Below the pieces are notes generated by a model. That model had not been told where the DNA came from. It worked only from the letters and a program-made list of their open reading frames with translations, and ran no database searches. From Sorex araneus (Eukaryota; Chordata; Mammalia; Eulipotyphla; Soricidae): DNA of 64,000 bases. The stretch spans positions 169,454,172-169,518,171 of the forward strand of contig NC_073305.1 in NCBI RefSeq assembly GCF_027595985.1, given 5' to 3'. Below, piece by piece: positions 3,083-55,577 of the stretch. Every line of letters begins with the position of its first letter. Positions within the stretch are counted from its first letter, which is position 1. A program made the translations under genes and the position numbers.

Positions 3083-3450
3083 ATCACTGTGTCACTGTCA
3101 TCCATTGTTCATTGATTTGCTCAAGCGGGTGCCAGTAACATCTTCATTCATCCCTCTTGCATGCTAATGTAGCCTGATGGCATATTGGGGGCTCTTTCAG
3201 GTCAGGGGAATGAGGATCATCATTGTTACTGTTTTTGGCATATCGAGTACGCCACGGGTAGCTTGCCAGGCTCTGCCTTGCAGGAAGTATACTCTCGGTA
3301 GTTTGCCAGGCTCTCTGAGAAGGAAGGAGGCTTTTGGGGCGGTCTCTAATCGCCTTTACAGGTGTTCCCAGTCTACCAAATGCAAGCTTTTGGTCGACTG
3401 GCATGTTGTAACGATCTGCACACTGACAAACACGGACCTGTCTGCGTCTC
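3083..3450 (-). mobile_element. Internally deleted RTE derivative D1 (5' UTR joined to 3' end)
   Basis: Read on the minus strand, the element has RTE 5' UTR, including GGGAACACCTGTAAAGG and the SINE-body block. It continues through CCTCATTCCCCTGACC and GAAAGAGCCCCCAATATG, as in copy 1 at 21979-22018. It then jumps directly to the RTE 3' end (CAGGCTACATTAGCATGC ... CTGGCACCCGCTTGAGC) and a CAGTGAC-type tail. The deletion junction is near 3183, within a short ATGCC/ATGGC overlap. There is no tRNA head. It is a non-autonomous RTE relic and a plausible ancestor type for the SINE body. Confidence 0.82.
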
Positions 3451-6234: not shown

Positions 6235-6482
6235 ATCACTGTATCACTGTCACTGTCATCCCATTGCTCATTGATTTGCTCGAGCGAGCACCAGTAATGT
6301 CTCCATTGTGAGACTTGTTGTTACTGTTTTTGGCACATCAAATACGCCATGGGGAGCTTGCCAGGCTCTGCCATGTGGGCGAGATACTCTCAGTAGCTTG
6401 CCGGGCTCTCCAAGAGGGACGGAGCAATTGAACCCGGGTCGGCTGCGTGCAAGGCGAATGCTCTACCAGCTGCACTGTCACT
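6235..6482 (-). mobile_element. RTE-tailed tRNA SINE, copy B2, full length
   Basis: The minus-strand copy shows the repeat tail (ATCACTGTATCACTGTC), the RTE 3' end, the 5' UTR block (GGAGCTTGCCAGGCTCTGCC) and the tRNA head ending near 6482. It lies in AT-rich DNA and codes for nothing. Confidence 0.92.
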
Positions 6483-10480: not shown

Positions 10481-10728
10481 TCTGAGTGATAGCACAGCGG
10501 GTAGGGTGTTTGCCTTCAATGCGGCTGACCCGGATTCAATTCTTCCATCCCTCTCGGAGAGGCTGGTAAGCTATTGAGAGTATCCCACCCATACAGGCAG
10601 AACCTGGAAAGCTACCTGTGGTGTATTCGATATACCAAAAAAAGTAACAACAAGTCTCACAATGGAAACGTTCCTGGTGCCTGCTCGAGCAAATTGATGA
10701 ACAATGGGACAACAGTGCTACATTGCTA
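10481..10728 (+). mobile_element. RTE-tailed tRNA SINE, copy B3, full length
   Basis: Head TGATAGCACAGCGGGTAGGG is followed by the standard body and the RTE 3' end (GCCTGCTCGAGCAAATTG). The tail is short. An L1 3' fragment begins about 20 bases downstream. Confidence 0.9.
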
Positions 10729-11511: not shown

Positions 11512-11621
11512 TCACTGTATTACTGTCATCCCATCGCTCATCGATTTGCTCGAGCAGGCACCAATAACATCTCCATTGTGAGACTTGTTACTGTTTTTGG
11601 CATATCAAATACACCACGGGC
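11512..11621 (-). mobile_element. RTE-tailed SINE, copy B4, 5'-truncated
   Basis: Only the RTE 3' end and part of the 5' UTR block remain; the tRNA head is missing. A perfect 11-bp TSD, AGTACAGAGTA, at 11501-11511 and 11622-11632 shows that truncation happened during insertion, as expected for target-primed reverse transcription from the RTE tail. Confidence 0.93.
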
Positions 11622-11766
11622 AGTACAGAGTAGGTTTTTAAAAATATATCCGTGGGGCCTGCTCATTTCCAACTATCATTGGAAAGAGAGAGAGAGAGAA
11701 GAAAAGAAATATGCCTGCCATAGAGGCAGGCTAGGGGGAGGAGGGCCTGAGGGAAATCCAGGACAT

Positions 11767-12540: not shown

Positions 12541-12634
12541 TGTCACTGTCATTGTCACTGTCATTCCATTGCTCATCGATTTGTTCGAGCGGGCACCAGT
12601 AACGTCTCTCGATTGTGGGATTTATTTGTTACTG
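12541..12634 (-). mobile_element. RTE-tailed SINE fragment, copy B5
   Basis: The tail units (TGTCACTGTCATTGTCACTG) and RTE 3' end (CGATTTGTTCGAGCGGGCAC) are present. The sequence fades out after GTTACTG, so this is a strongly 5'-truncated copy. Confidence 0.82.
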
Positions 12635-13392
12635 CTTCAAATAAGAGTAAACATTAATTATAAATGAAAATGAATAGTATATAAGAAAAAAACACCTTCA
12701 GACTACATAACCTATTATATGGAATCACTATAGGAATTATGGTTACAATTATGGCTAAATATGAATCACACTGAAAATATTTGTTCAGATTTACCAATCT
12801 AGAGAAAAATAGTTATCAATGTACTACTTGTAATTAGACATTGGTATAGCCGAAGAATGTGAAATCATTATGTGCTACTGTAATTGTGCCACTCTGTAAT
12901 TCGATTACATTTAGGAAATTTTTAAAAAAAAATGTTGTCATAGTTACTATAAAATTTTGATAAAGGACTTGGAAAGCAATGATCTGTCTTAGAAGTCTAT
13001 TTATTGAGATTGATAGGACTTTTACTCCTTTCTTTGAGCATCAGGTTGCTCTTGATTTCACTTTTAGCATATGAAAAATAAGGTGGGTGGTCCAGATAAT
13101 ATAAAGCGTCTTTTTTAGTTCACTGATACTATAATAATGTTCCTAATTCTGTGCTACTGATAATAGACTATCATATTATAGGAAATAGATTATTTTATAG
13201 GACAAAATTATAAAAGCATAATACTGGAATCTAGCACTTGAGACCCCAAGCACCATTGGGAGCAGAGTCCCACTCCCCCCCCAAAAAAATTATGAAAGCA
13301 TAATATTATTAAAATGTTTTCCATGGTACTTCTTAGTGTGGTTTACTTGAAATGTAGTGATATGTTGTCATTTGTAAAACAAAGAGATACAG
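12635..13392. other. Intergenic AT-rich DNA, nothing recognised
   Basis: No repeat family or gene signal identified. Confidence 0.6.
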
Positions 13393-13579: not shown

Positions 13580-13825
13580 ACTGAAGCAATAGCAGAGTGG
13601 GGAGGGCATTTGCCTTGCACGCGGCCAACCTGGGTTTGATTCCTCCGCCCCTCTCAGAGAGCCCGGCAAGTTACCAAGAGTATCTCGCCCGCATGGCAGA
13701 ACCTGGCAAGCTACCCGTGGCATATTCGATATACCAAAAACAGTAACAAGTCTCACAACGGAGACGTTACTGGTGCCCACTTGAGCAAATCAATGAATAA
13801 CGGGACAACAGTGCTAACAGTGCTA
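13580..13825 (+). mobile_element. RTE-tailed tRNA SINE, copy B6, full length
   Basis: Head GAAGCAATAGCAGAGTGG, body with CGGCAAGTTACCAAGAG, and RTE 3' end ACTTGAGCAAATCAATGA are all present. The tail is a short (ACAGTGCTA)n. B-box is mutated (GGGTTTGATTCC). Confidence 0.9.
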
Positions 13826-17665: not shown

Positions 17666-17910
17666 ACTGGAGCAATAGCACAGTGGGTAGGGCGGTTTGC
17701 CTTGCACCTGGCCGACCCGAGTTGGATTACTCCGTCCCTCTCAGAGAGCCCGGCAAGCTACCGAGAGTATCCTGCCTGCACAGCCGAGGCTGACAAGCTA
17801 CCTGAAGCGTATTCAATATGCCAAAAACAGCAACAACAAGTCTCACGATGGAGACATTACTGGTGCCCGCTCGAGCAAATCGATGAACAACGGAATAACA
17901 CTGCTACAGT
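17666..17910 (+). mobile_element. RTE-tailed tRNA SINE, copy B7, full length
   Basis: A complete copy with perfect TSD ACTAGTATATGCCAA at 17651-17665 and 17911-17925. Its 3' part translates in one frame as WRHYWCPLEQIDEQRNN. This resembles the C-terminal residues of the RTE ORF in copy 3 (WRSYQSLLKQIDEQWNDK), so the SINE tail derives from coding RTE sequence. Confidence 0.95.
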
Positions 17911-17925
17911 ACTAGTATATGCCAA

Positions 17926-20146: not shown

Positions 20147-20212
20147 TATCACTGTATCACTATAATCCCATTGCTCGTCAATTTGCTAGAGCGGGCACCA
20201 GGAATGTCTCCA
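20147..20212 (-). mobile_element. RTE-tailed SINE fragment, copy B8
   Basis: Only about 65 bases of tail and RTE 3' end are left (TATCACTGTATCACTATAAT, then GAGCGGGCACCAGGAATGTC). Confidence 0.8.
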
Positions 20213-20606
20213 TAAAACAGTAAAAACCTCCATCCCATCCTGCCAAGAAAATACACTGATCACATTTATGTATATCCTTTCAGCTTTTGGACATTTGTTC
20301 ACTGTTTATGCACATATCTCTGTGTGTTTTTAACCAAAATATCTGTGTCTGGAATTTTTTTAACTTAATATATATTGTAGCATCTTTCTAGATCAATACA
20401 CACAGTCATCTTATTTTAAGAGTTGCATAGTATTCCACTCCAATACACGGAGACATCAGAATTGATTAACCAGGACCTCAATCAGAGACATTTGGGTTAG
20501 TTTTGATTTTGTTTTTGTTAAAGGTAATAGAATTATACAGATGTCTGTGATTATTTGGGAAAGTGTTTCTGCATGAGAAATTCCCAGAGTAAAAATTATA
20601 AGGACA

Positions 20607-21399: not shown

Positions 21400-21770
21400 A
21401 GTCTCAGTCTATAGACCTATAGCCTATAGACCTCTACTACGCAGCCACTTCCACGCTCCGGGCCGCTTTCTGGACACTTGGGTCAAACCTCATGCATGAG
21501 TGAAGCCCCACAGAACAAGGTAAAGCAGAACTTTGTGACCTTGGACTCCAGGCTCAATGAGACCTGGAAACAAGATCCTCTGTCTGCCTCCTCCAATCTC
21601 AGGTGCACCAGGGATCAAACCCAGATGACCCACCCTAACCGCTCCAGATCAATACCTTATGGGTCGACCTCCACTACCTCCACTACCAAGCCACTTCCAT
21701 GCTCCAGGCTGCTTTCCAGACCCCATGGCCACGAAGCGGCTTCACGATACACCATAAGATACTTACTACC
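21400..21770 (+). repeat. Imperfect duplicated block, possible RTE 5' UTR extension
   Basis: ACCTCTACTACGCAGCCACTTCCACGCTCC at about 21429 recurs as ACCTCCACTACC ... AAGCCACTTCCATGCTCC at about 21668, each followed by a related GCTGCTTTCC/GCCGCTTTCT string. The spacing is about 240 bases. Placement just upstream of confident RTE 5' UTR suggests 5' UTR monomers, but it could be separate DNA. Confidence 0.5.
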
Positions 21771-21865
21771 CTTTTTCCATAATTTTCATGCCATATTTGA
21801 TGGGGCTTAAATATGGAGTGAACCATTGGAACACCTGTAAGGGTGATTGGAGGCCGCCCTAAAAG

Positions 21866-21979
21866 CCTCCATCCCTCTCAGAGAGCCCGGCAAGCGACCA
21901 AGAGTGCCCCGCCTGCATGGCAGAGCCTGGCAAGCTACCTGTGGTGTATTTGATATGCCAAAAACAGTAACAACAATGG
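21866..21979 (+). mobile_element. RTE 5' UTR block shared with the RTE-tailed SINEs
   Basis: This block of RTE copy 1 reads CCTCCATCCCTCTCAGAGAG, then CCCGGCAAGCGACC, CAGAGCCTGGCAAGC and ATGCCAAAAACAGTAACAAC. The same order and wording make up the middle of every RTE-tailed SINE in the window (for example 1065-1175 and 17725-17845). Here it lies inside a LINE, followed by CCTCATTCGCCTGACACCG and the endonuclease reading frame. It is thus the likely source of the SINE body. Confidence 0.85.
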
Positions 21980-22120
21980 GCCTCATTCGCCTGACACCGA
22001 AAGAGCCCCCAGTATGGCAGCCTTAAGAAGGATGAGCAAGGAGAGGCTGATAAAATCTCAGGGACGAACTAGACTGCCAAAACGAAGCACTAAAATGACT
22101 GTACTTTCAATGCACGTATG

Positions 22121-22553
22121 ATGGCATCGGAAGCATCCATTGAGGACCTGATGGTGCATGCGCAGAAGATCAAGTATGACATCATTGGTCTGACCAAAAC
22201 AAGAAGGCATTGATCATGTCATGCCATTTTCAACACTGGAGAAGAACTGCTCCTTGGAACATGTGACAAAAGAGGCGTCAGTGGTGTCGATGTCCTTGTC
22301 AACATGAACTTGGCCATGAGCATTGATTCATTCGAATGCAAAACAACCCAAATTGGACGATTATGCTTGAATAGATGTGGCTCACTGCCGGCAGTTTCTA
22401 TCTTCATTGTCTATGCACCAACATCCAGCTACGATGAAGAAGACATTGAGAAGTTCTACATGGAGCTGGAGAAGTTCTATAAAGAAGACCACACCTTCTA
22501 CTAGATCATTGTTGGTGATTTTATTGCCAAGATAGGACTGAGAAGGTAGCCTA
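22121..22553 (+). pseudogene. RTE APE-like endonuclease domain, inactivated
   Basis: The reading frame starting MASEASIEDL continues through IIGLTKTRRH, VLVNMNLAMSIDSF, IFIVYAPTSSYDEEDI and GDFIAKIG. These match the order of motifs in APE-type LINE endonucleases. In-frame stops occur at 22211, 22502 and 22547. The catalytic Glu expected in the L-T-E-T-R motif is Lys here. The Asn of the G-D-F-N motif is Ile. The domain is therefore dead in this copy. It is in a different frame from the RT segment downstream. Confidence 0.85.
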
Positions 22554-22847
22554 AAAAACTCCATATTAGGCCCCATGGCCTAGAATGGAACAAACAGGGT
22601 GAGAGACTGTCTGAGTTTATCATGTCAACCAAGACCATCCATGGTAACTCACAGTTCCATGGTAACTCACAGTTCCAGAAGGCCGAATCTAAATGTTGGA
22701 CATGGGAGTCTCCCAGTGGACAGTTCCACAAAGAAATTGACCACATCATATTCAAATGAAGGTTTTGTCCACCTGCCCACATGCCAAATTCTGCAGGATG
22801 GATATGTCATTCCTAACATCCTCCCTTCCAAAATCTGATATGCTGTT

Positions 22848-23843
22848 TTGTCGGTCAAGACGCGTACAGCAGCTGGTCCAGACAAGGTCAGACCCGAACA
22901 CCTGAAGAGTCTACCGCCAGTACTTGTCAATATACGGGCTCAGCTCTTCACACGCTACCTGCTCAAATGCAAGGTTCCATCCCAATGGAAAACCAGCAGG
23001 ACGGTTCTATTGTACAAGAAGGGAGACATCCACAACATTGACAACTATCGCCCAATCTGCCAGTTGTCCATCGTCTACAAGTTGTTCATTCGAGTCATCC
23101 TGAATAGAATAGGCAGAACACTAGATGAAGGACAAGCATGCAAGCAAGCCGGGTTCCGAAAAGAGTTCAGCACGACCGACCATATCCACACAGTGACCAA
23201 GCTCATTGAAGTTTCGCGAGAGTTCAAGATGCCACTCTGTCGAACGTTCATTGATTTAAAGAAGGCCTTTGATTCTGTTGAGACTGAAGCGGTCATCGAA
23301 GCCCTAGCCAAACAGGGTGTTCAAACTCAGTACATCAAGATCCTCTGCAAGCTGTATTACAGATTTCCCACCAGGATCTCACCATTCTACAAGGAAGTGA
23401 TCATTGACACAAAGAGAGGGGTTTGGCAGGGTGATACCATTTCACCAAAACTCTTCAGTGCCACCCTCAACAACATCATGCGACGACTGGAATGGGAAGG
23501 AATGGGAGTGAAGATAGACTGTCGGCAACTACACCACCTCCGCTTCGCTGATGACATCATTCTAATAACACCAAACATTAGCCAAACGGCACAAATGCTG
23601 GCCAACTTCGACCGCGAGTGTGGAAAGGTCGGACTGCAGCTGACTCTCACCAAGACAATGTTCATGAAAAATGAACTAGTCCCTGATGTACCATTTGCTC
23701 TCAATGGAACAAACATCTCCAAATGCAGCAGCTATGTGTACCTGTGTCGAAAACTCAACATGAGGAATGACTTGGCGCCAGAACTGTGCAGGAAAAAGAA
23801 CCTCTGTCTCCGGACACATCTTTTCGACTCCATATATATATGA
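22848..23843 (+). pseudogene. RTE reverse transcriptase segment, open for 331 codons
   Basis: This segment retains ordered RT motifs: GPDKVRPEHLK (10-20), TVLLYKKGD and NYRPICQLS (52-74), FIDLKKAFDS (134-143, catalytic Asp), GVWQGDTISP (191-200) and FADD (233-236, catalytic pair). The thumb-like region ends ALNGTNISKCSSYVYL. The reading continues to about residue 328 (HLFDS), but about 20 residues are missing after ELCRKK, and the C-terminal region seen in the copy at 36.1 kb is absent. The ATG is simply the first Met in frame, not a native start. No RTE protein can be made from this copy because the endonuclease is broken and out of frame. The intact RT suggests a fairly young insertion (inference). 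Confidence 0.9.
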
Positions 23844-23850
23844 CAGAATC

Positions 23851-24622
23851 AACTAGAAATGCCTGGATCTATTCACCTGGGGCTCCATTATTTCTGGCAA
23901 GTCCCCAATTATTTCTACAGTCAGAGCTAATGTTGGGGTTGTGTGGTTATTATTATAAATTTAGGAAATGCCTTTACAATAACCATCAGGTAATTTAAAT
24001 AGAGTATTACATGGAGCTTCCTCCTAGCCTTACCATGTACTAAATAATTCTACCATTTGGTAGCTATTTGATAAATAGAAAACCATCAACACAAAAAGTT
24101 ATAACCATCCCCCACCATGTTTATTGGCAAAATTATTTGAAAGAGCTAAATTATGGAAGCAAAGTATCAGATAAAATGTAATAGAATAAAGAAAATGTGC
24201 TAGAGTTATACACTGAAATACTGTTCAGCTTTATTAAATAAATAAAAGTTTTATGCAAAATTAAAAAAATAACCAAAAAGAGCAAGTACTAGATGAGTTC
24301 ACCAGTGTGTGCTTGTAAGGACATATAAAACAGATAAACAGTTTTTTTATCTTAAGTGGACATTTATAACAGGACTAAGATTACCTGAATGGAAGAGGAT
24401 AGGAAGTAGGAGGGAAAAGTGAATAGAAATTTAAGAAAAATAATTGGTGTAAAAATCCCCCAAATCCAATGTAATATGGTCATAATAAAAAAAGAAATGA
24501 AGAGGAGAAGTAGAAAATCTTTTGGGTCATCTTCATATGGATTTACATCAAATTTTTATATCATGTCCTGCTAGATTCAATAATTTCTAAATTATTAAAA
24601 CAATGCTCAAATTAGAAACTTT
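23851..24622. other. Intergenic AT-rich DNA
   Basis: A-rich stretches with weak L1-like wording (24200-24500) but no firm assignment. Confidence 0.5.
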
Positions 24623-24637
24623 TTGAAAGATAGTTTT

Positions 24638-24806
24638 TTTTTTCTTTGTGGGTCACACCCGGCGATGCACAGGAGTTACTCCTGGCTCTACACTTAGGAA
24701 TTACTCCTGGCGGTGCTCAGGGGACCATATGGGATGCTGGGATTCGAACCCGGGTCGGCCACGTGCAAGGCAAACACCCTACCCGCTGTGCTATCACTCC
24801 AGCCCC
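24638..24806 (-). mobile_element. Poly(A) tRNA SINE, copy A5
   Basis: Antisense full copy (GGGTCACACCCGGCGATGC to TATCACTCCAGCCCC) with perfect 15-bp TSD TTGAAAGATAGTTTT at 24623-24637 and 24807-24821. Few differences from the consensus suggest a young insertion. Confidence 0.94.
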
Positions 24807-25410
24807 TTGAAAGATAGTTTTGATGTAGAAACATAAATTCATTTTTTCCATCAACTATATAGTTAAATCTCACAGAAGTTAAATCTTCCAAACAAGTATT
24901 TTCTGCAATTATGTAAAATGTTATTTTGGGGGGATTGAGGGAGCACTTTGAGACAATATTTGGTACCTGGGTTGAACCCTGTGCTCCCATGCAAAATATT
25001 TTCTCCAGAATTTGGAATAATCTCCCAGTCCTGAAATATCATTTTGCCATAGAGTAACTGTAACTCACACATAAATTTAGTGTATTGACCTAATGCTTTG
25101 TTAGTATGAGAATGTTTAAAAATATTGTACTTGGTTAATATCTCTTAATAAATTATAATTAACATTTTATTTATCTTTTGTTTTCACACTGTTCTAACTC
25201 AGCATTTTCCAAATGCAACTTAAAATTAATTTTAAAAAGTTTGGAATGTTATGTTGAATTTTTAATTTTATAACCTGTTTTTATTTTGAATTAACAATTT
25301 TATTAGTCACATTGCTATAAATATATCAAATAACTTTCCTAGCTTATTTTGGAAAGAAATAATATAACTTTGTCAATTGGTCATATATGTCTCTACATAT
25401 ATATGCATGA

Positions 25411-25631
25411 ACTGGAGTGATAGAACAGCGGGTAGCTCATTTGCCTTGTGCCTGGGTTAGATTCCTCCATCCCCCTCAAAGAGCCTGGCAAGCTACGGAG
25501 AGTATCCCACCTGCACGGCAGAGCGTGGCGTATTTGATATGCCCAAAATAGCAATAACAAGTCTTACAATGGAGACGTTACTGGTGCCTGCTCAAGCAAA
25601 TTGATGAACAACGTGATGACAGTGCTACAGT
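25411..25631 (+). mobile_element. RTE-tailed tRNA SINE, copy B9
   Basis: A near full-length copy with small deletions in the tRNA head (the stretch after TTGCCTTG is shortened) and in the body (GCAGAGCGTGGCGTATTTG skips a repeat unit). The 3' part is standard. It is the first of three same-strand copies within 1.6 kb. Confidence 0.9.
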
Positions 25632-25794
25632 GCATATGTATGCACACATGTATATTTTCATTTATCTTATATTCTTTCATCAGTCTAAAGTTCCAGAATA
25701 TTATAAATTATAGTGGTATAAGCAGAAAGACAATTCTAGAATCAATGTTGTTATTTTGGCACTTATTTTTATTATTGAGGGAGCATAATTTATG

Positions 25795-26500
25795 GTAGTG
25801 TTAATGTTTATGTTCTTGATATACAAATTTACTGTATCTCCATCACCACTCAAGTGCCAGAAAACTTTACTCAGCATCTTCAATCATTTCTAGGTCATCC
25901 CTCTCTGCTTACCCACTCCCTTTACTAACCTCAGCTCTACTGTTGAAGTCTAAGGCCTTGTTCCCATTTACCTTACTTGTGTCTTTGTATGGACTGGAGC
26001 AATAGCACAGCGGGTAGGGTGTTAGCCTTGCACTCGGCCGACCGGGGTTAGATTCTTCCATCCCCCTCGAAGAGCCTGGCAAGCTACCGAGAGTATCCCA
26101 CCCACACAGCAGACCCTGTCAAGTTATCTGTGGTGTATTCAATATGCCAAAAACAGTAACAACAAGTCTCACAATGGAGACGTTACTGGTGCCTGTTTGA
26201 GCAAATTGATGAACAACCGAACAGGAGGACACTGATACAGTGATACAGTTTCTTTGTACATCACATATAAATGATGTCAGTTACCATTTGTCCTTTCCCT
26301 CTGATTTATTTCATGTAATGTGGTACCCTCTAGTTTCATATAAGTTGTAGCAAAAGGCAGGATTTCAATGTGTTTTTTTGTAGCTGCATGGTATTCTATT
26401 ATGTAGATAGATCGCAAACTCATCTATCAGATATTTGAGTTGTTTTTGGATCTTGGAAAATAGAGTTGCAGTGAGCATAAATGATAATGTTTCATTAAGT
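25795..26500 (-). mobile_element. L1 3' UTR, antisense, split by SINE B10
   Basis: Left part (CATCACCACTCAAGTGCCAG) and right part (CTCTGATTTATTTCATGTAA, GCTGCATGGTATTCTATTATG) belong to one antisense L1. The SINE at 25990-26250 interrupts it. Confidence 0.75.
25990..26250 (+). mobile_element. RTE-tailed tRNA SINE, copy B10, inserted in an L1
   Basis: Complete copy with tail ACTGATACAGTGATACAG and an 8-bp TSD, TCTTTGTA, at 25982-25989 and 26251-26258. It splits an older antisense L1 3' region, so it is younger than that L1. Confidence 0.92.
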
Positions 26501-26801
26501 ATTATATTTTCTCTATATTTCTTAAAAATCACTCCTTCTCAAGTTAAGGCTTCTTTCTGAGTCAAGGAGACAATTCAGATGTTGAGGTACATAGGCCCAA
26601 CCCAGGTTTGACCCCAGTATTTTCAAAGTACCAGTTTTTAGTTTTATGAATCTTTTGTATTATATTTTTTATTTCTGGGTTATTTATGCTTTAATTTTTA
26701 TTTTATTAATTTTTTTCCTTGTACTAATTTTTGATTCATCTGGGCTTTTGTTGTTGTTGTTATTATTTTTTTCAGTACTTAAAATTTTATATTAGATTAC
26801 T

Positions 26802-27033
26802 TCTGGCTGGAGTGATAGCACAGTGGGAAAGGCGTTTGCTTTGCACACCGCCAACCCAGGTTCAATTCCTCCATCCCTCTTGGAGAGCCCGGCAAGCTGC
26901 TGCCCACACGGCAGAGTCTGGCAAGCTACCCATGGCGTATTCCATATGCCAAAAACAGTAACAAGTCTCACAATGGAGATGTTACTGGTGCTTGCTCGAG
27001 CAAATCGATGAACAACCATTGACAGTGCTATAG
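26802..27033 (+). mobile_element. RTE-tailed tRNA SINE, copy B11
   Basis: Head GGCTGGAGTGATAGCACAG, body with a deletion of about 15 bases (GCAAGCTGCTGCCCACACGG), RTE 3' end GCTTGCTCGAGCAAATCG and a short tail. Same strand as B9 and B10. Confidence 0.9.
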
Positions 27034-27284
27034 TCCTACTGTATGGGGTTCTGAGTGTCACTGAATGCTGTCTTGGAGGCACTCAAGCATGACCAGGTGT
27101 CACCTGAAAGCCTTCATATGGTGTAGGCAAAGTGATTTCTTTCAGTTCTACCTTTAGCAGCAACTATTTTTAGATTATTCTGTATTATTCCAAACTCTGT
27201 TGTACTCATTTATACACCATGACTTAGTGACAAGTGTCAGAATGGATTTACTGTATGTGAGGTTCTGCTATAGAAACTATTCTA

Positions 27285-27974
27285 GGAACTTGAAACAGCG
27301 GGATGCCTGGGCAGTCTCGGGCCAGGACTGGAGCTCGGGCTCTGGCCGAGATTCGATCTGGGTGGCCATGCCTTTGCACAGCCGAGTGGCTGCAGAACAA
27401 GCAGGAGCCAGAGCCAGCTATGTGACTTGGGGTTCCAGCGAGTGCTTGCAACCATGTATCCAGACTGTGAACTAAGCTTTTGCTCCATGCTGCTCCAGGA
27501 AGGGAAATGATTCAATTTCCAACTTAAATCTCCCTGGACTTAATTACTAAAATACAAAAATTGTAAACCGTGGGGCCACTACTGCGGCCGCACGACTTTT
27601 TATCTCTTCATTCTCATCAGTGGAAAACTAATTATCAAATATTTCCTTGTCAATAGGGCTGTATTCTTGGGGGATAAATTCCAACAAAAATAGTGAGTCT
27701 GTGTTGAAACTCCAACAACAATAGTGAGTTTTGTGTTGTAATATGGAATGTAATCAAGGTAAAGAGAAAAGGAAGTGAAATTTATCAGTTACGTGGGGGG
27801 GCAGGGGTGTTTGGGGGGTGAGGGGTGGGATGTATACTGTTTTTTTTTTATTGGTGGTGGAATATGGGCACTGATGAAGTGACGGGTGTTTGAGCATTGT
27901 ATAACTGAGACATAAACCTGAGAACTTTGTAACTTTCCACATGGTGATTCAATAAAATAAATTTAAAAAAAAAA
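27285..27974 (+). mobile_element. 5'-truncated L1 insertion with GC-rich 3' UTR
   Basis: The insertion is flanked by perfect 13-bp TSD AGAAACTATTCTA at 27272-27284 and 27975-27987 and ends in poly(A) after GTGATTCAATAAAATAAATT. Its left part (27290-27480) is unusually GC-rich and holds a NotI-type GCGGCCGC at about 27584. The short open frames there are part of the element. Confidence 0.88.
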
Positions 27975-28379
27975 AGAAACTATTCTATGTAGGGAATCCC
28001 AAAACTTCTCTGATGCTTTCTCACTGATGACCTGTCTATGCCATTTGTGAGGTAGTGGGGTTCCAAACTCTAGGTGGATCAAAATCAAACTCCTGGCAGT
28101 GGATTCTTTGTATATCACAGAGAGTGGGAAATTGATCCAGTACTGGCATGACTAAATAAGGACTTAAATTTCTTTTTCGGCTGGATTTTGTGAACTAACT
28201 CAAGCTACCTGAATTTGGTAAGGACAAAATGTGTTCACGTAGGTGTAGGCTCTCAGAGTTTTAAAACCAATTAAAGGTTCCTTTGGAACAGCTCAGTTCT
28301 CTAGAGCTGGGGCAAAAGCAACACAAAACTGCTTCAGAATAAGCCTACAGAGCATATGACGAACTCTTTAGAAGCATGA

Positions 28380-29090
28380 TGCAATAACTATCACAGAAGA
28401 CAAACCACAAAACCAGTAAGTGGAAAAACTTATTTCAGAGGATGTAGAAATAATAGACTCATTGGAACAGGACTTCACATTAATATATTGAAATAATTTG
28501 AAGATATAAAGTATTTGGCCACACAAGGATAGCAATGACTGTAAATCAAAAAATAGTAAAAACAGGAAGGAGCCTAATTGAAATTTTAAGAGGGAAAAAT
28601 AAATGGTTGCTAAATTAAGGAAAATTCAACATAGGAATTAATTGTAGATTAGACAATTAGGAATAAACCAGATCAGAAAACATGCTTGAGGAAATAATTG
28701 TGAATTTAGCACAGTGGAATAGAGGCATTAAAAACCTGAAATAGAATTTAGGGGATTTGAAGGATAAATGTTTTACCATAGGAGACTTTAAATAAGAGAA
28801 TGAAGAGATTGAAGAGGAGAAAATTATCTATAGATTATGTAAACATATCTGAATACTTTACAAAGCTAAATAAAGATTTAAAATACACAAACATGTTCAA
28901 TATGTATCCCTACCTAGCCATAAAATATCAGAATACCATCAGCAATAAGGGAAAAGTTCTTCAAGCTATCAAGGAGAAATGAAAATTATCTATAAGAAAT
29001 AATAAACAGATTGACAACAAAATCCCCCTTGGCATCAATTAATTCTAGAATTTAATGGCAACATGTATTTAAAATACTAAAGATTTATCA
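28380..29090 (+). mobile_element. HAL1/L1 ORF1-like remnant
   Basis: A-rich, with phrases such as AATAAGGGAAAAGTTCTTCAAG, AATCCCCCTTGGCATCAA and TAGAATTTAATGGCAACATG that parallel the HAL1 region at 5.2-6.0 kb. No long frame. Tentative. Confidence 0.4.
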
Positions 29091-29108
29091 TTAACTTATA
29101 ATTTATTA

Positions 29109-29289
29109 TATGTATTGTCTTTATTTTGCTTTTGGGGTCATACCGGCGATGCTCAGGGGTTACTCCTGGCTCTGCAGTCAGGAAATACTCCTGGGGGTGC
29201 TCAGGAGACCATATGGGATGCTGGAGATCGAACCCAGGTTGGCTGTGTGCAAGGCAAATGCTCTACCCAGTGTATTATCACTCCGGCCC
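29109..29289 (-). mobile_element. Poly(A) tRNA SINE, copy A6
   Basis: Antisense copy with short T tail. TSD CTTATAATTTATT at 29095-29107 and 29290-29302. Confidence 0.93.
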
Positions 29290-29499
29290 CTTATAATTTA
29301 TTTTAAATAAATATTAAGGCTAGTGCTAAAGACATTTTTGACACATAAATATTTCTGACACTTAGCGCCTGTTTACCATCAACAGGTACATATTGAAAGA
29401 TATAATTCAGAAAAAATAATAAGTAATAAGAAAGTCTACAATTAAAACATAATATGGTTCAAAAGAATTAGGGAAAAAGTAGTAGTGAATCTAATTTTT

Positions 29500-29683
29500 T
29501 AAATTTATTTATTTATTTTACTTTTTTGGGTCACACCTGGCAATGCACAGGGGCTACTCCTGGCTCTGCACTCAGGAATCACTCCTGGAGGTGCTCAGGG
29601 ACCATATGGGATGCTGGGGATCGAACCCCAGTTGGCCACATGTGAGGCAAACGCCCTACCTGCTGTGCTATTGCTCCAGCCCC
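29500..29683 (-). mobile_element. Poly(A) tRNA SINE, copy A7
   Basis: Antisense copy with (TTTA)n tail. TSD CTAATTTTT at 29491-29499 and 29684-29692. Only about 200 bases from A6 in the same orientation. Confidence 0.92.
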
Positions 29684-29729
29684 CTAATTTTTAATAATTA
29701 GATTAGCTACTTTGAAAACAAGAGGGAGA

Positions 29730-30010
29730 GATATGGAGAGATAGCTCAAAGGACTGGAACCCCAGCATGACACACTTGAGGTCATGAGCTGATTCCTGAC
29801 AACACATGTCTTCCCCTCAACATCACTGGAAGCCCCTACAAATAACTTGAGAGGCCCCCAGTACTGGATCTGGGGAGCAAGGCACGCCATACAAGCACTC
29901 CGGCATCCCACCATCTCTATCAGGCACAGACCCATCAGGCCTGCACAGCTGTGCTGAGTCTTGCCATTGTGGCCCTGGGGCTCCTTGAGCATTGTTGGGA
30001 TCCCCACCTC
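29730..30010 (+). mobile_element. Old tRNA SINE leading into a (CA)n array
   Basis: GGAGAGATAGCTCAAAGGAC, CATGAGCTGATTCCTGAC and GGGGCTCCTTGAGCATTG. The middle is expanded relative to the A family. The 3' end runs into the (CA)n tract at 30012-30063. Confidence 0.5.
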
Positions 30011-30011
30011 T

Positions 30012-30063
30012 ACACACACACATACACACACACACACACACACGCACACACACACACACACAC
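30012..30063. repeat. (CA)n microsatellite, interrupted
   Basis: CA repeats with one CATACA and one CACGCA interruption, at the end of an old SINE. Confidence 0.95.
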
Positions 30064-30319
30064 GAAGGTAGAACTAAAATACTGATAGTAAATACAGGAT
30101 AAAGGAAGGTCAACAGAATATGAAAGTGTGCCTTTGCAATGCAAGCAGAGAAGCAAAAATGTTGAAAGGCAGAACATAGATACTGTCTTATCTTATACTT
30201 TGTGGGAGGGCGAGAGCATAGAGTTGAATTCAAAGGTGAATAATTATACCAAGAAAAGCATAACTTTCAAAAGAAACAGAAGCAGGGGGGGAATGATCAA
30301 GAAAACAAGTGTAGGTCAG

Positions 30320-30480
30320 GAGAGAGAGCAGAGAAGTAAGACCTTGCTTGTGGCCAAGCTGTGGTTTGCTACCCAGCACCAAATATGGTTACTTGAGCAA
30401 TTGCCAGGAATGACCCCTGAGCACAGAACCAGAAACAATCCTTGAACACTTCCAGATGTGGCAAAAACCAAAAACAAACA
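30320..30480 (+). mobile_element. Old poly(A)-type tRNA SINE
   Basis: CCAGGAATGACCCCTGAGC, GAACCAGAAACAATCC and CCAGATGTGGCAAAAACC match a diverged A-family body. Confidence 0.7.
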
Positions 30481-30529
30481 AAATCCCTACAAAACAAGTG
30501 AAAAAATTAAGACATTACTTTTGTCGCTT

Positions 30530-31450
30530 ACTCAATGACAAAATGTATGAATAGCATAATGCAAATTGAGAAAATACTTGCCTTTTAAAAATAATCACAT
30601 ATTTATTTTTTAAGTTCATCGGAATATTTGAAAGTGCAGTAGCAGTGCATTGTATAATACATTAGTATGGGTCTTACCACTAAAAAAAGAAAATTATGCT
30701 CAACATACCTTTAAATGTTTTTTAAATGTCACCAAAGAAATTGCAAGTTCTAAGAATTATTATAACAGAAATTATTTCCCCTGCCCACAATGCACTAAAA
30801 ATAGAATTCAACACGCGAAAGCATACAGCTAAAGCTAAGAAAAATTGTTTTAATATATGAATCATTAAAAAGAATTAGGTTCATGTTTAAGTAAAATAGC
30901 TATAAATAAAACAATAAAAATGCTGTAAAACATTACCACAATAAAAAACTATTATTCAGAATAAAAATAAGCCAAAATAGTGTAAAATTTAGAAAATAAG
31001 AAAACCAAAGATAAAATATTATGAAATAAAAAACAGAATACAAAGATCAATGAATAAGATATACCTCTCACGAATAAAAACAAGTCAAAAATAAATTAAT
31101 AGTACAGATATAGTAGATAAGTATGCAATTAATAGTATCAACAACTTTATACTAGTGGTTCTGAGGAATAGGTAAGATGAACAAGTTAATTTAAAACAAA
31201 ATCCATAAAACTTCCTCAAGTTTAAACAACTACTGAAGAAATTGAACACTATTAATTGCTATCAATTCATCAGAATAATCCTGACCACTGCAGTGTCTAA
31301 AAACTCCAGATTCTGCAAGCAATCCTTCAGCAAGCCAAGACATAGATAATCTGTATCATATATCAGATATATAAAACATTAGAACAAGAAAAACTGCTCC
31401 TAAAAATGTGAAAAATAACAAGACTAAAAATGCAAAATAGCTCACTTATA
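30530..31450 (+). mobile_element. Degraded L1 ORF2 fragment
   Basis: The A-rich strand keeps faint L1 ORF2 phrases (TAATAGTATCAACAACTTTA, CCACAATGCACTAAAAATAG). Assignment is tentative. Confidence 0.45.
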
Positions 31451-33004
31451 TATATAGAAACATAATTTCAAGATCATTAATAGGAAATTTTGCCAAAATT
31501 TATGTAACATTTTTGTCTTTTGTAACTTTTAAAATAATACCTTAGTTTTCTTTTAATTGTTTATATTACTGGACCAAAAGCTTAGTTTATTTAAAATTTT
31601 CTTTCCTTACTAAGTGCACTTAAGGATAGGCAATTTTCTGTGCGTTGTAGCCATGAATTTTGGGTAGCAAACATGCGAGAAGAGATTCCAGTATCCAGAG
31701 TAACTGACCTGCACAATCTTGGGCAGTGCTCTTAAGTACAGGCTGTTACCTGTCCCAGGCATGCAGAGGGCTAACTGAGGGATTCATTTATTTAATTACT
31801 TAATTACTGCTCTGGAGTCCCCACTACTCACCCAGTCTATTTATTTTAACACCTGTATACTCACTGCAACTGCCACTCCAGGGCATGTATAATAGGATGT
31901 GGTAATTTTTGTGAATAACATCACCCCTAATTATTCCAATGTGTTTATCTCCCAAAGACACCAATCTTTCCATCAGAATATCAACATTGATAAACATTAT
32001 TATTACCTTATCCACAGTTATTATTCAAAATTTTCTAATAGCCAAAACTGATTTAAGACAATAGTTGTTATACCCTTCATTTTCTTTTCATCTCTAACTT
32101 CACTTCATGGGGTCTTTCCTATCTTTTCAGAGTTTGATAAGAGTCCCAAAAGTACTGTTTGCTTCAGTGTGTGGAATATCCTCAGTTTCAATCTCTCCAA
32201 TATCATATTAGCTCATGAACAACTATGCCTTCTTTTATTCAGTGCTTTGTTTTAATTTTTATTCTCCTTCCTTCTTCACTCCCTCCCTCTCTCCTTCCCT
32301 TCATTCCTGCCTTTCTTCTCCCCACAACCCCAGCCACCCCACACTTACTCTTTATATAATTCCTTGGCCAGTGCACTACAGAATGATGCTGTGTTCTCCA
32401 TGGATTACAACCAGAGGTACACAATATTGATTTTACTGATATTTGTGAAATGAACCTTTTTTACTGGGTCACATGTAAATCTACCAGATTTCTCTTTTAA
32501 ATGTATTTTACTTTTGTTTTATTTTTTAATGTATTTTACTTTTAAAACTTTTATGTATTCTTTTTTAGTGGTTGATACATGCTTGCTTATTCTGTGTTGA
32601 ATGTTCCATATTTGATTCTTTGGTTTTACAAAATTAGGGGATATTTCATTTTGCATTTTGAAAGTTTGGAGGCTAGATCTTTAACACACACACACACACA
32701 CATACACAAAATCTCCATACAACTCACAACTCAATAAATTGCTTAGACATGTTATTAATGACGCTCACATTTCCAGTGAATCATAAAAGCCCCATATGAC
32801 TGCTAAAAGATTTGCCAGTTCATCTTTTTCCCTAGATGAATCTCTCTTTTTGAACTCAGTCTTTGGTCTGCATCCCAAATTGGCAATTTTCCCTGTGGTT
32901 AACATGGTGGACATCAATTTCTCAGTCTTCAAAGTTTTCACATCTCTGTAATTTTAATCCATTTCATTCTTTTTGTTTCTAAGACTGTGATTACTTAAAA
33001 AACA
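31451..33004. other. Intergenic DNA, nothing firm
   Basis: Unique-looking AT-rich DNA with a pyrimidine-rich stretch at 32262-32340. No gene signal. Confidence 0.6.
32682..32701. repeat. (CA)n microsatellite
   Basis: About nine CA units followed by CATACACA. Confidence 0.9.
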
Positions 33005-33113
33005 CAAGCAGGAGATGGACAGGTACGGGGTTGGGGTGAGGGGGGAAATATGGGAACACTGGTGGAGGGAAGTTGACATTGGTGGTGGGATTGCTGCTTA
33101 AAAGTCAACTATT
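33005..33113 (+). mobile_element. Host L1 3' UTR, left part of a nested insertion
   Basis: GGGAACACTGGTGGAGGG and GGTGGTGGGATTGCTGC are L1 3' UTR. The element resumes after two later insertions as 33604-33639 and 35791-35809 (CTTTAACC plus A-run). Confidence 0.8.
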
Positions 33114-33603
33114 TTTTTTTAATTTTTAAAATTTTATTGAATCACTGTGAGATAGCTACAAGCTTTCAGGTTTGGGTTACAATCTCACAATGATCAAACG
33201 CCCATCCCTCCACCAGTGCACATTCCCCACCACCAGTATCCCGGGTATACCCCCCCTTTCCAACCCTCCCCTTGCCTCTATGGCAGACAATATTCCCCAT
33301 ACTCTCTCTCTACTTTTGGGCATTATAGCTTGCAACCCAGACACTGAGAGGTCATCATGTTTGGTCCATTATCTACTTTCAGCACGCATCTCCCATCCCG
33401 GCTGATTCCTCCAGCCATCATTTTCCTAGTGATACCTTCTCTATTCCATCTGCCTTCTCCCCTCTGCTCATGAAGCAGTCTTCCAGCTATGGGGCAATCC
33501 CCCTGGCCCTTGTATCTACTGTCCTTAGGTGTCAGCCTCATGTGATGCTACCCTACACTCCACAAATGAGTGCAGTCCCTTTATGTCTGTCCATCTCTTT
33601 TTG
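33114..33603 (-). mobile_element. L1 3' UTR, antisense, inserted in an older L1
   Basis: A 5'-truncated antisense L1 end with T-rich tail at its left. Perfect 14-bp TSD AAAAGTCAACTATT at 33100-33113 and 33604-33617 lies inside the older + strand L1. It closely resembles the copy at 38371-38965. Confidence 0.92.
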
Positions 33604-34129
33604 AAAAGTCAACTATTAATAACTTTGTAAATCACAGTATCACTTGTCATCCCATTGATCTTCGATTTGCTTGAGCAGGTGCCAGTAACGTTTCCATTTG
33701 TCCCTGCCATGTGCTAGTGTAGCCCAATGGTATCTGCTCTCTTCAGAAACACGAAGACCCTCAAACCATTCATTCCGGGTTTTAATGAAGGAGTCTGACC
33801 ATCTTGTAGGTGAGTGGCCACACAGTCTTTTGACATCCTGTGGAATCCAGTCAGTAACAGTTCTAGTCCAGCAGTCATCTCTGAATCACATTATGTGCCT
33901 GGCCCATCTGATTTCTGATGCCTTGGCAAACAGGATAACATCCCTGATTCTTGATCATCAATGGAGGTCAGAACTCCGGATTCCTTCTCTCACTTGAGTG
34001 AAATGTGATACTCCAAGCATAGCTCTTTCGATTCCTCTTTGGGAGACCCGAATAGCATTCTCATCCAGTTTTCGTAGGGTCTAGGTCTCTGAGGCATATG
34101 TTAGTGCAGGAAGAACTGTGGAGTCAAAA

Positions 34130-34461
34130 AGATGTGCCCAGAGCTGGAGATTCTTTGTCCTCTTAACCACTTCTTCGACGCTCTTGAAAGTGTTCCACAA
34201 TGCTCTCTTCCTCCTGTGCAGTTCTGGAGCCAAGTTGTTCCTCATGTTGAGTTCTCGACCCAGGTACACATAACTGCTGCATTCAGAGATGTTCGTTCCA
34301 TTGAGAATAAATGGAACATCAGGGACCAGTTTGTTTTTCATGAACATTGTTTTGGTGAGATTTAGCTGCAGTCCAACCTTTCCAGACTCATGGTTAAAGT
34401 CAGCCCGCATTTGTGCCGTTTGGCTAATGTTTGGTATTATTAGAACTTCTCTGTAGTGCAA
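34130..34461 (-). pseudogene. RTE post-RT domain fragment
   Basis: The minus-strand reading retains DFNHESGKVGLQLNLTKT, LNGTNISECSSYVYLGREL, KSVEEVVKRTKNLQLWAHL and LPALTYASET. It corresponds to the region after the catalytic FADD. It includes the segment that copy 1 lacks after ELCRKK. It stops at the inversion junction on one side and a stop codon on the other. Confidence 0.8.
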
Positions 34462-34526
34462 AATTCCACTTCACAGAGCAAGGACAAAGGACTGCAAAGT
34501 TTAAGTTTTAGAAGAGAACCTCCAGA

Positions 34527-35466
34527 ATGACCACCAACTGGGAGCTCTTTGTCACTACTGAGGCAACGTGGGAAGATGCCATCACTGTTAACATCAATGA
34601 GGAATACGATCAGCACCTCCATGACTGCAAGAGGAATGCCAAGAGTGGGAAAGTCACAAACAGATGCCTGTCTTCGGAGACTCTCGAGCTCATTCCCCAA
34701 TGTGGCATGGCACAAGCATCAAACAATCACAAGCTAATGTCCGAGCTGGCAAAGCTGTGCAGAAAACCGATAAAGGAAGACCTCAAAAAGAGAAGAGCAG
34801 CAGTGTAGCCGATGCAGCAGAAGCTGGGAAAAGGAACACTCGCTTGTCCTTTGCCAACTACAAGACCAAGATGACTGCCCTCTGACCTCCTAATGGATCT
34901 ATCACATCTTCCAGAATGGCAATGGAGAGAATTATTCGCAACTTCTACTTGGATCTCTTCAACAGCCACATCCACCTGCCCACATACCGAATTGCACAGG
35001 ATGGATATGTCATTCCCAATGTCTTCCCTTCTGGAATCCGACACTTCATTTTGTCAGTAAAGATAAAGACTCGTACAGCACCCGGTCCAGACAAGGTCAG
35101 ACCTGAACACCTGAAGAATCTGCCACCAGCACTCGTCAATATATTGGCTCGGCTCTTCACACCTACCTGTCCAAATGCAATGTTCCATCCCAATGGAAAG
35201 CCAGCAGGACTGTTCTGTTATACAAGAAGGGAGACATCCACGACATCAGCAACTATTGCCCAATCTGCCTGTTATCAGTCTTGTACAAGTTGTTCATTCG
35301 AGTCATCCTGAATAGAATAGGCAGAACACTAGACGAAGGACAACCATGCGAGCAAGCCAAGTTCTGTAAAGGATTCGGCACAATCGACCATATCCACACA
35401 GTGACCATGTTCATTGAAGTTTCGCAAGAGTTCAAGATGCTGCTCTGTCTAACGTTCATCAATTAA
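34527..35466 (+). pseudogene. RTE linker and RT fragments in the inverted half
   Basis: Successive frames encode the endonuclease-RT linker (TTNWELF ... LAKLCRKPIKEDLKKRRAAV) and the RT N-terminal half (HLPTYRIAQDGYVIP, RTAPGPDKVRPEHLKNLPPALV, LFIRVILNRIGRTLDEGQPCEQ). Frameshifts separate the pieces. Several stops follow, including one in the first catalytic motif (AATTAAAAGA where copy 1 reads IDLKK). This half holds the linker deleted in copy 1. Confidence 0.8.
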
Positions 35467-36102
35467 AAGAAGACCTTTGATTCTGTTGAGACTGAAGTGG
35501 TCATCGATGCCCTAGCCAAACAGGGTGTTCAAACTCAGTACATCAAGATCCTCCGTGAGCTATATTACAGATTCACCACCAGGATCTCACCATTCTACAA
35601 GAAAGTGATCATTGACATAAAGAGAGGGATTCACAGGTTGATACCATTTCACTGAAACTCTTCAGTGCCACCCTCAAGAACGTCATGTGACAACTGGAAT
35701 GGGAAGAAGTGGGAGTGAAGGTAGATGGTCAGCAACTACACCACCTCCGCTTCACTGATGACATCATTCTAATAACACCAAATCACAGTACTTTAACCAA
35801 AAAAAAATTGTACAACAATAATCCAAAGATATTTGCCTAGCTCTTTTTTATTGCTGTTAAACTATCACAATTCACATTTTTATGAAAAATAGAAGTTAAT
35901 GTCCTTGTCCTTAGCAATTTTTTTCAAAATATTTTGAACAATTTTACTTAGATACTTGATTTAGATAAAATTGTCTCTTTTCCAAAAACATAAATCATGG
36001 GATTTTTTTAACATTTCCAGATCCCATGAACAATGGATTAAACTGAACTTGCAAATGTGAATTAGACTTGTCTCAATTAAAAATGAATACTTATGGTGAC
36101 CT

Positions 36103-36605
36103 TCCTGCACTAACATATGCCTCAGAGACCTGGGCCCTATGAAAACAGGATGAGAACTCTATATTCCTCCCGAAGAGGAATCTAAAGAGCTCTGCTAGGA
36201 GTATCACGTCTCACTCAAGTGAGAGAAGGAAGCTGGAGTTCCGACCTCCGTCGACGATCAAGAATCAGGGATGCTGTCTCATTTGCTAAGGCATTGAAAA
36301 TCAGATGGGCCGGACACATAATGCGATTTGGAAATGACCACTGAATTAGAGCCGTTACTGACTGGATTCCATGAAACATCAACCTAACTTAAGTGGCCGC
36401 CCACCTAAGGCAGTATGGATGGTACCACCTATGGATGGTCAGACTTCTTCATCAAGACCCTGAATGAATGGCTTGAGGCTCTTCCTGTTTCTGGAGTGAG
36501 CAGATGCCATTGGGCTACACTAGCATGCAATAGGGATAAATGGAGAAGTTACCAGAGCCTGCTCAAGCAAATTGATGAGCAATGGAATGACAAGTGATAC
36601 AAGTG
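36103..36605 (+). mobile_element. RTE LINE copy 3, 5'-truncated 3' end
   Basis: The fragment encodes the C-terminal part of the RTE ORF with stops: LTYASETWAL, LGVSRLTQVREG, IRDAVSFAKALKIRWAGHIM. A final frame then reads MDGTTYGWSDFFIKTLNEW through KQIDEQWNDK to a TGA at the 3' end. The 3' terminus is a short tandem tail (AAGTGATAC units) rather than poly(A), as usual for RTE elements. A 10-bp TSD, ATGGTGACCT, flanks it at 36093-36102 and 36606-36615. The last about 60 bases match the 3' end of the RTE-tailed SINEs. Confidence 0.88.
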
Positions 36606-37243
36606 ATGGTGACCTCAGTTATAATTAGGAAAGTGTCATAGGCTTTCTATTCTAGCCTTGAGTATTTAAATCTATTTTTCCTTTTTTATTCTTCTGTATT
36701 TCATCTGACTGGATTATTACACTGACAAATATTATCAGCCCTCTTTTTTCATGCCCTTTAAACAGGGTCACCCGAGGGAGCACATTCACTCTTTACTCTC
36801 ATGTGTTTTTACCTTTCGTTTTCACTCACGCTTCGTGGTATTGATGTTATAAGCATAGGAGATTTATCAGTTTAATGAAATACAGTCTCTGTCCTTATAG
36901 TGATTTTGTGGTCCAGCGAGGAAACAGACAAGAAGAAAGCATTAACAGGTTCCATAACTGGTATATAATTCTAAGTGTGTGTACTTGCTGGTCTTAAAGT
37001 GGGGGCAGGATCTAACACAGAGATGTATAATGAAGTCCAGCCCCATAGTAGTGGATTTTGACAAGATCTCAATACTCAAGAACAGGACTATTCATAACTT
37101 TCAACAGAACTACTTAGTAATGGATTAAGATCTAGTGCTCAAATCTTTTATTCCTGTTGGTAAATATCTTTATATATTCCATATTACAAAATTTAGGTGC
37201 TAGAATGATAAATTGGTAAGTTGAAAATATAGCATAAAGAAAT

Positions 37244-37409
37244 CACTGTCACTGTATCACTGTCATCCCGTAGTTCATTTGCTCAAGTCAGCACCAGTAA
37301 CGTCTTCATTTGTCCCTGACGCATGCTAGTGTAGCTCAGTGGTGTTTGCTCGCTCCAGGAACATGAAGAGCATGTTGTTGTTACTGTTTTTGGCATATCA
37401 AACATATAA
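37244..37409 (-). mobile_element. Internally deleted RTE derivative D2, 5'-truncated
   Basis: On the minus strand it reads GATATGCCAAAAACAGTAAC from the RTE 5' UTR. It then joins at about 37375 to a longer RTE 3' end (GCTCTTCATGTTCCTGGAGC, GAGCTACACTAGCATGCG) and a tail of ACAGTGAT units. The junction differs from D1, so D1 and D2 are independent deletion products. An imperfect TSD, AGCATAAAGRAAT, lies at 37231-37243 and 37410-37422. Confidence 0.78.
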
Positions 37410-39100: not shown

Positions 39101-39314
39101 TTTAAAAAAAATTTATTTATTTATTTATTTATTTATTGTTATTTTTTTGCTTTATGGGTCACACCCAGCGATGCTCAGGGGTTACTCCTGGCTTTGCACT
39201 CAGGAATTACTCCTGGCAGTGCTTGGGGGACCATATGGGATGCCGGGGATCGAACCCAGGTCGGCCGCGTGCAAGGCAAACACCCTACCCGCTGTGCTAT
39301 CACTCCAGCCCCCT
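39101..39314 (-). mobile_element. Poly(A) tRNA SINE, copy A9
   Basis: Antisense copy with (TTTA)n tail and perfect 15-bp TSD CTTTTCTTTTCTTTT at 39086-39100 and 39315-39329. It inserted into a pyrimidine-rich site. Confidence 0.93.
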
Positions 39315-55332: not shown

Positions 55333-55555
55333 TGTATTACTGTCATCACTGTCATTCCCGTTGCTCATCGATTTGCTCAAGCGGGCACCAGTAATGTCTC
55401 CAGTGTGAGACTTGTTATTGCTTTTGGCATATTGAATACACCATGGGTAGCTTGTCAGGCTCTGTCCAGCGGACAGGATACTCAGTAGATTGCCAGGCTT
55501 TCGGAGAGGAATGGAGGAACAGAACCCGGGTTGGACGTGTGCAAGGTAAATGCTA
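55333..55555 (-). mobile_element. RTE-tailed tRNA SINE, copy B12, with 22-bp TSD
   Basis: A minus-strand copy from tail (TCTGTATTACTGTCATC) to the tRNA anticodon region (ACGTGTGCAAGGTAAATGC); the first part of the head is missing. Perfect 22-bp direct repeats at 55311-55332 and 55556-55577 flank it. The left repeat overlaps an older local TAATAGTTTATA duplication. Confidence 0.92.
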
Positions 55556-55577
55556 ATATAATAGTTTATATAATCTC

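Follow-up and report, generated by a model that had tools for sequence, protein, structure and literature searches.

Several short interspersed elements (SINEs) are described as being built on the tail of a long interspersed element (LINE) of the RTE clade. According to the accessible part of the source (PMC3747384), Bov-tA carries a tRNA-Glu head and has Bov-B as its LINE, Bov-A2 carries the 5' end of the LINE, and RTESINE1, MAR4 and RTE1-N1_LA combine an RTE 5' end with an RTE tail. A different kind of composite is formed by the retroposons SVA_F1 and pt_SVA_D6, which carry the first exons of MAST2 and STK40 and are listed with 84 and 94 copies, respectively (PMC6139936, accessible part). 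For shrews, the Sor SINE (PMC11240701) and SINE primers (PMC8608897) are available from the accessible portions of two papers, and the LINE RTE1_Sar was reported by Dunemann and Wasmuth (2019) to have undergone horizontal transfer between strongylid nematodes and Sorex araneus; it was not found in reads from hedgehog, solenodon and mole (PMC6542046, both statements from the accessible text). Here we describe SINE B, a short element that very probably unites the head of the Sor SINE with both ends of such an RTE. The analysis started from a 64,000-nt stretch of Sorex araneus DNA on NC_073305.1 (the window), and genome scans covered the 2.4-Gb assembly of this species.

SINE B is about 245 bp long and, on the evidence given below, is very probably a non-autonomous element mobilised by the resident RTE. 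Its first part corresponds to the first ~63 nt of the Sor SINE, its second to ~110 nt from the 3' portion of the RTE 5' untranslated region (UTR), and its third to the last ~60 nt of the RTE, comprising the final ~18 codons and a CAGTGATA-type tail. The copies were identified by BLAST from two copies and by a profile made from nine copies; the same profile gave zero matches on 20 shuffled windows. A sequence-only reading of the window had put the number of three-part copies at 12 or more. The SINE itself is real, but the copies in which head, 5' UTR block and RTE 3' end are all present number 9, and 12 is arrived at only when three fragments broken off within the body are included. Genome-wide, 11,141 copies matched both an exact head-body seed (with 14 nt of head) and an exact body-tail seed at the correct spacing, and the reversed-pattern control yielded none. 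Full copies numbered 9 in the window and 5 in 50 kb of sequence sampled on five other contigs (14 in 114 kb), which extrapolates to roughly 300,000 copies per genome, a rough figure with few counts behind it. The mean divergence from the consensus was 10.2%, or 5.9% outside CpG, in 42 copies (8 from the window and 34 from L001-L038; L-numbers denote individually retrieved loci outside the window, all from the shrew genome except L039, a bacterial record). This sample leans to young copies because most of the L001-L038 loci were chosen by exact seeds. The corresponding values for 13 Sor-type SINEs of the window were 9.8% and 6.7%.

The composite moves as a single unit, since target-site duplications flank several copies. 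A duplication score of at least 11 was obtained for 4/12 window copies versus 3 of 300 random placements, of which 33 reached at least 8 under the same scoring. Exact duplications border 3/9 three-part copies: the complete copies at 1004..1244 (+, 14 bp) and 17667..17911 (+, 16 bp), for both of which the sequence-only reading had correctly given perfect duplications, and the copy at 55339..55556 (-, 16 bp), the head of which is truncated (first ~23 nt missing). Near-exact duplications are found at two more, 25412..25632 (+; ends complete, internal deletions; 11/12 bp) and 25994..26242 (+; complete; 10/11 bp). Duplications were not found at the complete copies 10483..10725 (+) and 13581..13822 (+) or at 26807..27034 (+; ends complete, internal deletion), while the near complete copy at 6238..6482 (-) shows an internal repeat only. 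Among the fragments, the 5'-truncated copy at 11513..11623 (-) has an exact 11-bp duplication; none was seen at the 5'-truncated copy 12553..12637 (-) or at 20150..20213 (-), which consists of the 3' part alone and is either a SINE B fragment or a truncated RTE.

The origin of the 3' part is visible in both nucleotides and protein. The 3' end of RTE copy 3 (36539..36606, +) is the counterpart of the SINE B tail, with 36539-36601 matching in the profile and in the consensus comparison, as had been proposed. One frame of the SINE B consensus encodes QWRRYWCPLEQIDEQRDD, and when the 246-bp consensus alone was searched, 15/18 residues were identical to the C-terminus of Nippostrongylus brasiliensis P0029 (E 3e-12). 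The earlier observation that the end of the SINE still translates like the RTE C-terminus thus holds. In the best 120 homologues of the reverse transcriptase described below, 11 retain the C-terminal end as judged by a motif filter (9 named nematodes and 2 without name), and 11/11 align to the QWRRYWCPLEQIDEQRDD frame. A further 3' part with C-terminus belongs to RTE copy 2 (33631..34470, -; BLAST and translation). The join between the 5' and 3' parts had been placed at a shared AATGG, but it does not lie at the AATGG of the 5' UTR itself: AACAATGGGCCTCATTC or a close variant stands at this position in RTE copies, whereas SINE B reads AACAACAAGTCTCACAATGGAGACG. In this comparison, the AATGG of SINE B is that of the 3' part, and the 5' part appears to run to GTCTCA.

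The middle part was located in RTE copy 1, where the block 21866..21976 (+) shows 11 mismatches to the SINE B middle along an alignment of 111 nt, in agreement with the assignment made from the window's sequence. By BLAST, the block recurs in a minus-strand element at 3368-3082. To see how the block is embedded in other RTE copies, the genome was queried with the coding sequence 22067-22400, giving 5,777 first-look candidates; 40 were scored and 40/40 matched. The window's own copy was among these 40, and ~640 bases of the upstream side were taken from each of the 12 best of the remaining 39. The block is present in 12/12 of these coding copies, with the same sequence following it downstream, and is therefore native to the RTE 5' UTR. 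Insertions of later date are present in L079 and L089; in L089, a Sor SINE lies within the block. Immediately upstream of the block, 9/12 copies have a module designated U2, ranging in length from 36 bp (L089, the last 36 bp of U2) to ~375 bp (L081). No U2 could be seen in L082 or L083, and the L079 piece stops before the U2 position. In RTE copy 1, U2 occupies 21431..21827 (+) and is separated from the block by a stretch GGAACACC..AAAAG (21828..21865, +; RTE copy comparison) that is missing from SINE B. The position of U2 also led us to reject GGAACACC as the 5' end of the RTE. The 5' UTR is therefore longer than in the sequence-only reading, which had rightly assigned the block to it; it reaches at least ~375 bp further upstream. 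U2 contains an internal repeat and is present at window 21431-21827 and in L049, L080, L081 and L084-L090.

The head had been described as tRNA-Ala-like. It is indeed of tRNA type, but it belongs to a resident SINE family (family A): the consensus heads of family A and SINE B differ at 3/63 positions, and nearly all departures from tRNA-Ala, for which we used a gene sequence that we take to be the reference, are common to both. For these two reasons the immediate source of the SINE B head is most likely the Sor SINE rather than a tRNA gene. ARAGORN called tRNA-Ala(tgc) in four family A heads, including 24729..24802 (-), which has the same head as SINE B, and 39235..39308 (-; also profile and consensus comparison); the SINE B heads of the window were not called as tRNA. 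The SINE B consensus head contains an RNA polymerase III A box, TAGCACAGCGGG, and a B box, GGTTCGATTCC. The head stops just past the B box. RTE sequence takes over at CCTCC, which in the RTE lies 38 nt downstream of GGAACACC. We take family A to be the Sor SINE, its letters agreeing with published shrew SINE primers: the three Soricidae primers/probes in the accessible part of PMC8608897 have exact matches in the window once, twice and once.

The RTE that supplied both ends has a marked affinity to nematode elements. RTE copy 1 retains an open reverse transcriptase fragment of 334 amino acids (22839..23843, +; Pfam RVT_1, E 2.5e-28), and its nearest relatives among those listed are strongylid. 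Among the best 120 of 935 protein matches, 115 are named and 5 are without name, and 115/115 named proteins are from strongylid nematodes (Necator 42, Angiostrongylus 37, Haemonchus 21, Ancylostoma 7, Nippostrongylus 4, Heligmosomoides 2 and Parelaphostrongylus 2). A midpoint-rooted tree, with no BovB outgroup, was drawn from 96 of the listed sequences. It places the shrew copy together with Haemonchus and two sequences without name (support 0.94), and the next deeper node adds Nippostrongylus and Heligmosomoides (support 0.95). The proposal that a resident RTE supplied both ends of SINE B was right; the reported exchange of this LINE with nematodes had been missed. Judged by its sequence relatives, the resident RTE is most likely RTE1_Sar, which shares its animal group and nematode relatives and is the likely autonomous partner of SINE B. 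The word 'SINE' is absent from the main text of PMC6542046 as far as this is accessible.

The features of SINE B suggest how it could spread. With A and B boxes present, the Sor head would direct transcription by RNA polymerase III. The RTE reverse transcriptase would then recognise the 3' end common to SINE B and the RTE, by analogy with other SINE/LINE pairs (PMC3747384, accessible part), and target-primed reverse transcription would insert the copy. The element itself was probably assembled when reverse transcription switched templates between a Sor RNA and an RTE RNA with an internal deletion.

Two other histories of the block would change the direction or the extent of the borrowing. If 21866-21976 were a SINE fragment inserted in RTE copy 1, just the 3' half of the SINE would be RTE-derived; the start of the block does coincide, at CCTCC, with the end of the SINE B head. 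This possibility, named beforehand as the one that could overturn the 5' half of the proposal, was put to the test with the 12 other coding RTE copies, and the proposal stood. All of them have the block with the same downstream sequence, U2 precedes it in 9/12, and it is also found in 20/20 loci of a second composite family headed by VAV3 exon 1 (see below). An insertion would survive only as an ancestral event fixed in the RTE master before the copies spread, which we consider extremely improbable. Alternatively, an older SINE B could have donated part of the 5' UTR to the RTE. SINE B does seem to outnumber coding RTE copies by far, as would suit such a donor, but the RTE sequence extends beyond the block in both directions (upstream into U2, downstream into the coding region), a remnant of head or tail was not seen there, and the SINE B tail is plainly coding RTE sequence. 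Capture in this reverse direction is therefore very unlikely.

SINE B could also be the shrew version of Bov-tA, inherited through a BovB ancestor rather than arrived at by convergence, and the two do have the same type of architecture. Block, RTE 5' UTR and SINE body were compared with the monomers of the element on L039, which we take to be Bov-A2, using three scoring schemes with 500 shuffles each. The score of the SINE B block alone was reached by 6 to 18 of 500 shuffles, which is marginal and uncorrected for several tests, but that of the shrew RTE 5' UTR was reached by 103 to 369 and is at chance, and that of the whole SINE B body by 29 to 65. Homology of the block to cattle Bov-A was thus not borne out. 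The reverse transcriptase, moreover, is nematode-like, and common descent with Bov-tA is in our judgement very unlikely. Because LINE and head both differ from those of Bov-tA, SINE B seems to have arrived at this kind of architecture independently, as the sequence-only reading had suggested. The L039 record, UNVERIFIED_CONTAM (Murimonas intestini), is a bacterial one that carries what is presumably ruminant-type Bov-A2 DNA at 2122-2143.

Several points weigh against the origin of SINE B as a Sor-RTE composite mobilised by the RTE. The ~60-nt tail would act as a recognition signal by analogy, and 4/9 three-part copies lack a flanking duplication. At the CCCGGG position, SINE B is nearer to the tRNA-Ala sequence that we take as reference than the Sor consensus of the window is. 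The nesting of the shrew RTE among nematodes is partly built in, because the tree was drawn from the best 120 of 935 matches alone, and the name RTE1_Sar follows from protein neighbours and species, not from the Repbase sequence. Finally, headless forms with the SINE B join are very rare: a pattern search gave 13 genome matches, a number whose ratio to the 11,141 SINE B copies is indicative only, a 10-nt seed having been used versus the 14-nt head seed for SINE B. Eight of these were retrieved, of which 4 have a front named U1 that belongs to the VAV3 family, 1 has the RTE front U2, 2 have a bare start at CTGGGAACACC and 1 has an apparent remnant of a Sor head; 5/8 thus bear the front of another RTE family. 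As such elements are rare and mostly have foreign fronts, an abundant headless precursor of SINE B is unsupported.

Other deletion forms of the RTE are also present. The element at 37249..37404 (-; BLAST) has a 5' UTR end joined to a longer 3' end at a different position and is flanked by a 17-bp imperfect duplication. Headless mini-RTEs with a join unlike that of SINE B were seen in L021 (1104-1400), L037 (1851-2150), L025 (2897-3132) and L043 (1270-1545). Those in L021 and L037 terminate in ATG repeats, and two tail types therefore coexist among the RTE forms; the one in L043 is without such repeats, and that in L025 runs off the end of its locus. Since several different joins exist, comparison of these sequences indicates that the resident RTE was internally deleted several times.

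The U1 stretch that precedes the RTE part in 4/8 of the retrieved headless loci led to a second composite family. In L045, L047 and L052, sequence resembling the start of VAV3 lies upstream of U1, and the L045 peptide matches PDB 2d86 (E 2.6e-29). A genome search with this L045 peptide gave 3,543 first-look candidates, of which 150 were scored and 150/150 matched. The order VAV3 exon 1, U1, RTE 5' UTR block was found in 20/20 retrieved loci, one of which is the L045 locus again; 16 match the next 5' UTR segment and 14 match the tail at the level used. The 5'-3' join is the same in ten copies chosen for alignment and in the window element at 3450-3085 (-), and unlike the join of SINE B; L057 has a deletion at this place. 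The VAV3 gene itself is L073, with 96% identity to human against 87% for the next best (a separate search; 2,761 candidates, 150 scored, 150/150 matching). Its exon 1 ends in CCCAG, followed by GTAAGG, whereas 25/25 copies lose VAV3 homology at CCCAG and continue with GTGCTGCCCAGAG or a variant (point changes and 1-bp insertions or deletions allowed). Because all copies examined stop at the splice donor of exon 1, the homology ends where a spliced transcript would leave it. U1 is not VAV3 intron 1, which was considered and rejected: the gene has GTAAGGCGCGG after exon 1 in place of GTGCTGCCCAGAG or its variants.

Members of the VAV3 family are the window element at 3085..3450 (-), L053-L072 and L074-L078. 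The window element is 5'-truncated and starts in U1, after the VAV3 part, as seen in an alignment with 10 genome copies. Pieces of U2 reappear upstream of the VAV3 part in 7/20 VAV3-type loci. L045, L047, L051 and L052 look like mosaics in which the back of a SINE B follows a VAV3-type front, and their structure suggests recombination or template switching between composite families.

Overall, it is likely that an RTE of nematode affinity, once it had entered the shrews, provided the core for a series of composite retroposons that vary in their internal deletion and in what is attached to the 5' UTR: a Sor head, the spliced VAV3 exon 1 with U1, or no head, with mosaics among these as well. One horizontally acquired LINE would in this way have captured both a resident SINE promoter and a host first exon. 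The LINE reported as exchanged between parasitic worms and shrews would then be the founder of a very common short repeat and not a dead-end immigrant. The time of the transfer would set the maximum age of SINE B, and its birth, the capture of the head and the spread could be dated on the shrew tree. A literature search found neither a shrew SINE with RTE ends nor a VAV3 retroposon described; subscription papers were mostly outside its reach, and an entry in Repbase, Dfam or SINEBase is quite possible, above all for SINE B. Tree shrews are the sole shrew mention in the accessible part of PMC5753468, and a search of viral contigs and phages gave nothing usable.

Compared with the known systems, SINE B is closest in type to Bov-tA and Bov-A2, in which a tRNA head or a LINE 5' end is placed on an RTE-clade tail, and the LINE of Bov-tA has, like RTE1_Sar, been reported as horizontally transferred (both from accessible parts of the sources). 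The head of Bov-tA derives from tRNA-Glu, whereas that of SINE B is of the Sor type, called as tRNA-Ala in the Sor copies; and where the body of Bov-tA comes from BovB, that of SINE B comes from a nematode-type RTE without a convincing match to Bov-A2 (the tree being one without a BovB protein). With RTESINE1, MAR4 and RTE1-N1_LA, SINE B shares the joining of both RTE ends; these are listed, in the accessible part of the source, without a tRNA head, which SINE B has. Headless forms, joined differently from SINE B, also occur in the shrew (L021, L025, L037 and L043). The Sor SINE has the same head as SINE B but its own body and an A-rich end, in place of the RTE body and tail. SINE B would stand beside ruminant Bov-tA as a second, independent composite of tRNA and RTE parts. 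The VAV3 family resembles SVA_F1 and pt_SVA_D6 in that a host first exon cut at the splice donor heads a composite retroposon, and the exon is joined exactly at the donor in 25/25 copies. It differs in its core, which is a mini-RTE where SVA has Alu-like, variable-number tandem repeat and SINE-R parts, and in number, with 2,761 to 3,543 first-look candidates versus 84 and 94 copies. It would be an RTE-based parallel to the capture of first exons by hominid SVAs, and together with SINE B it allows the rules by which composite retroposons swap heads to be tested. If one acquired LINE did capture both heads, a parallel to ruminant Bov-tA and one to hominid SVA_F1 lie side by side within one genome.

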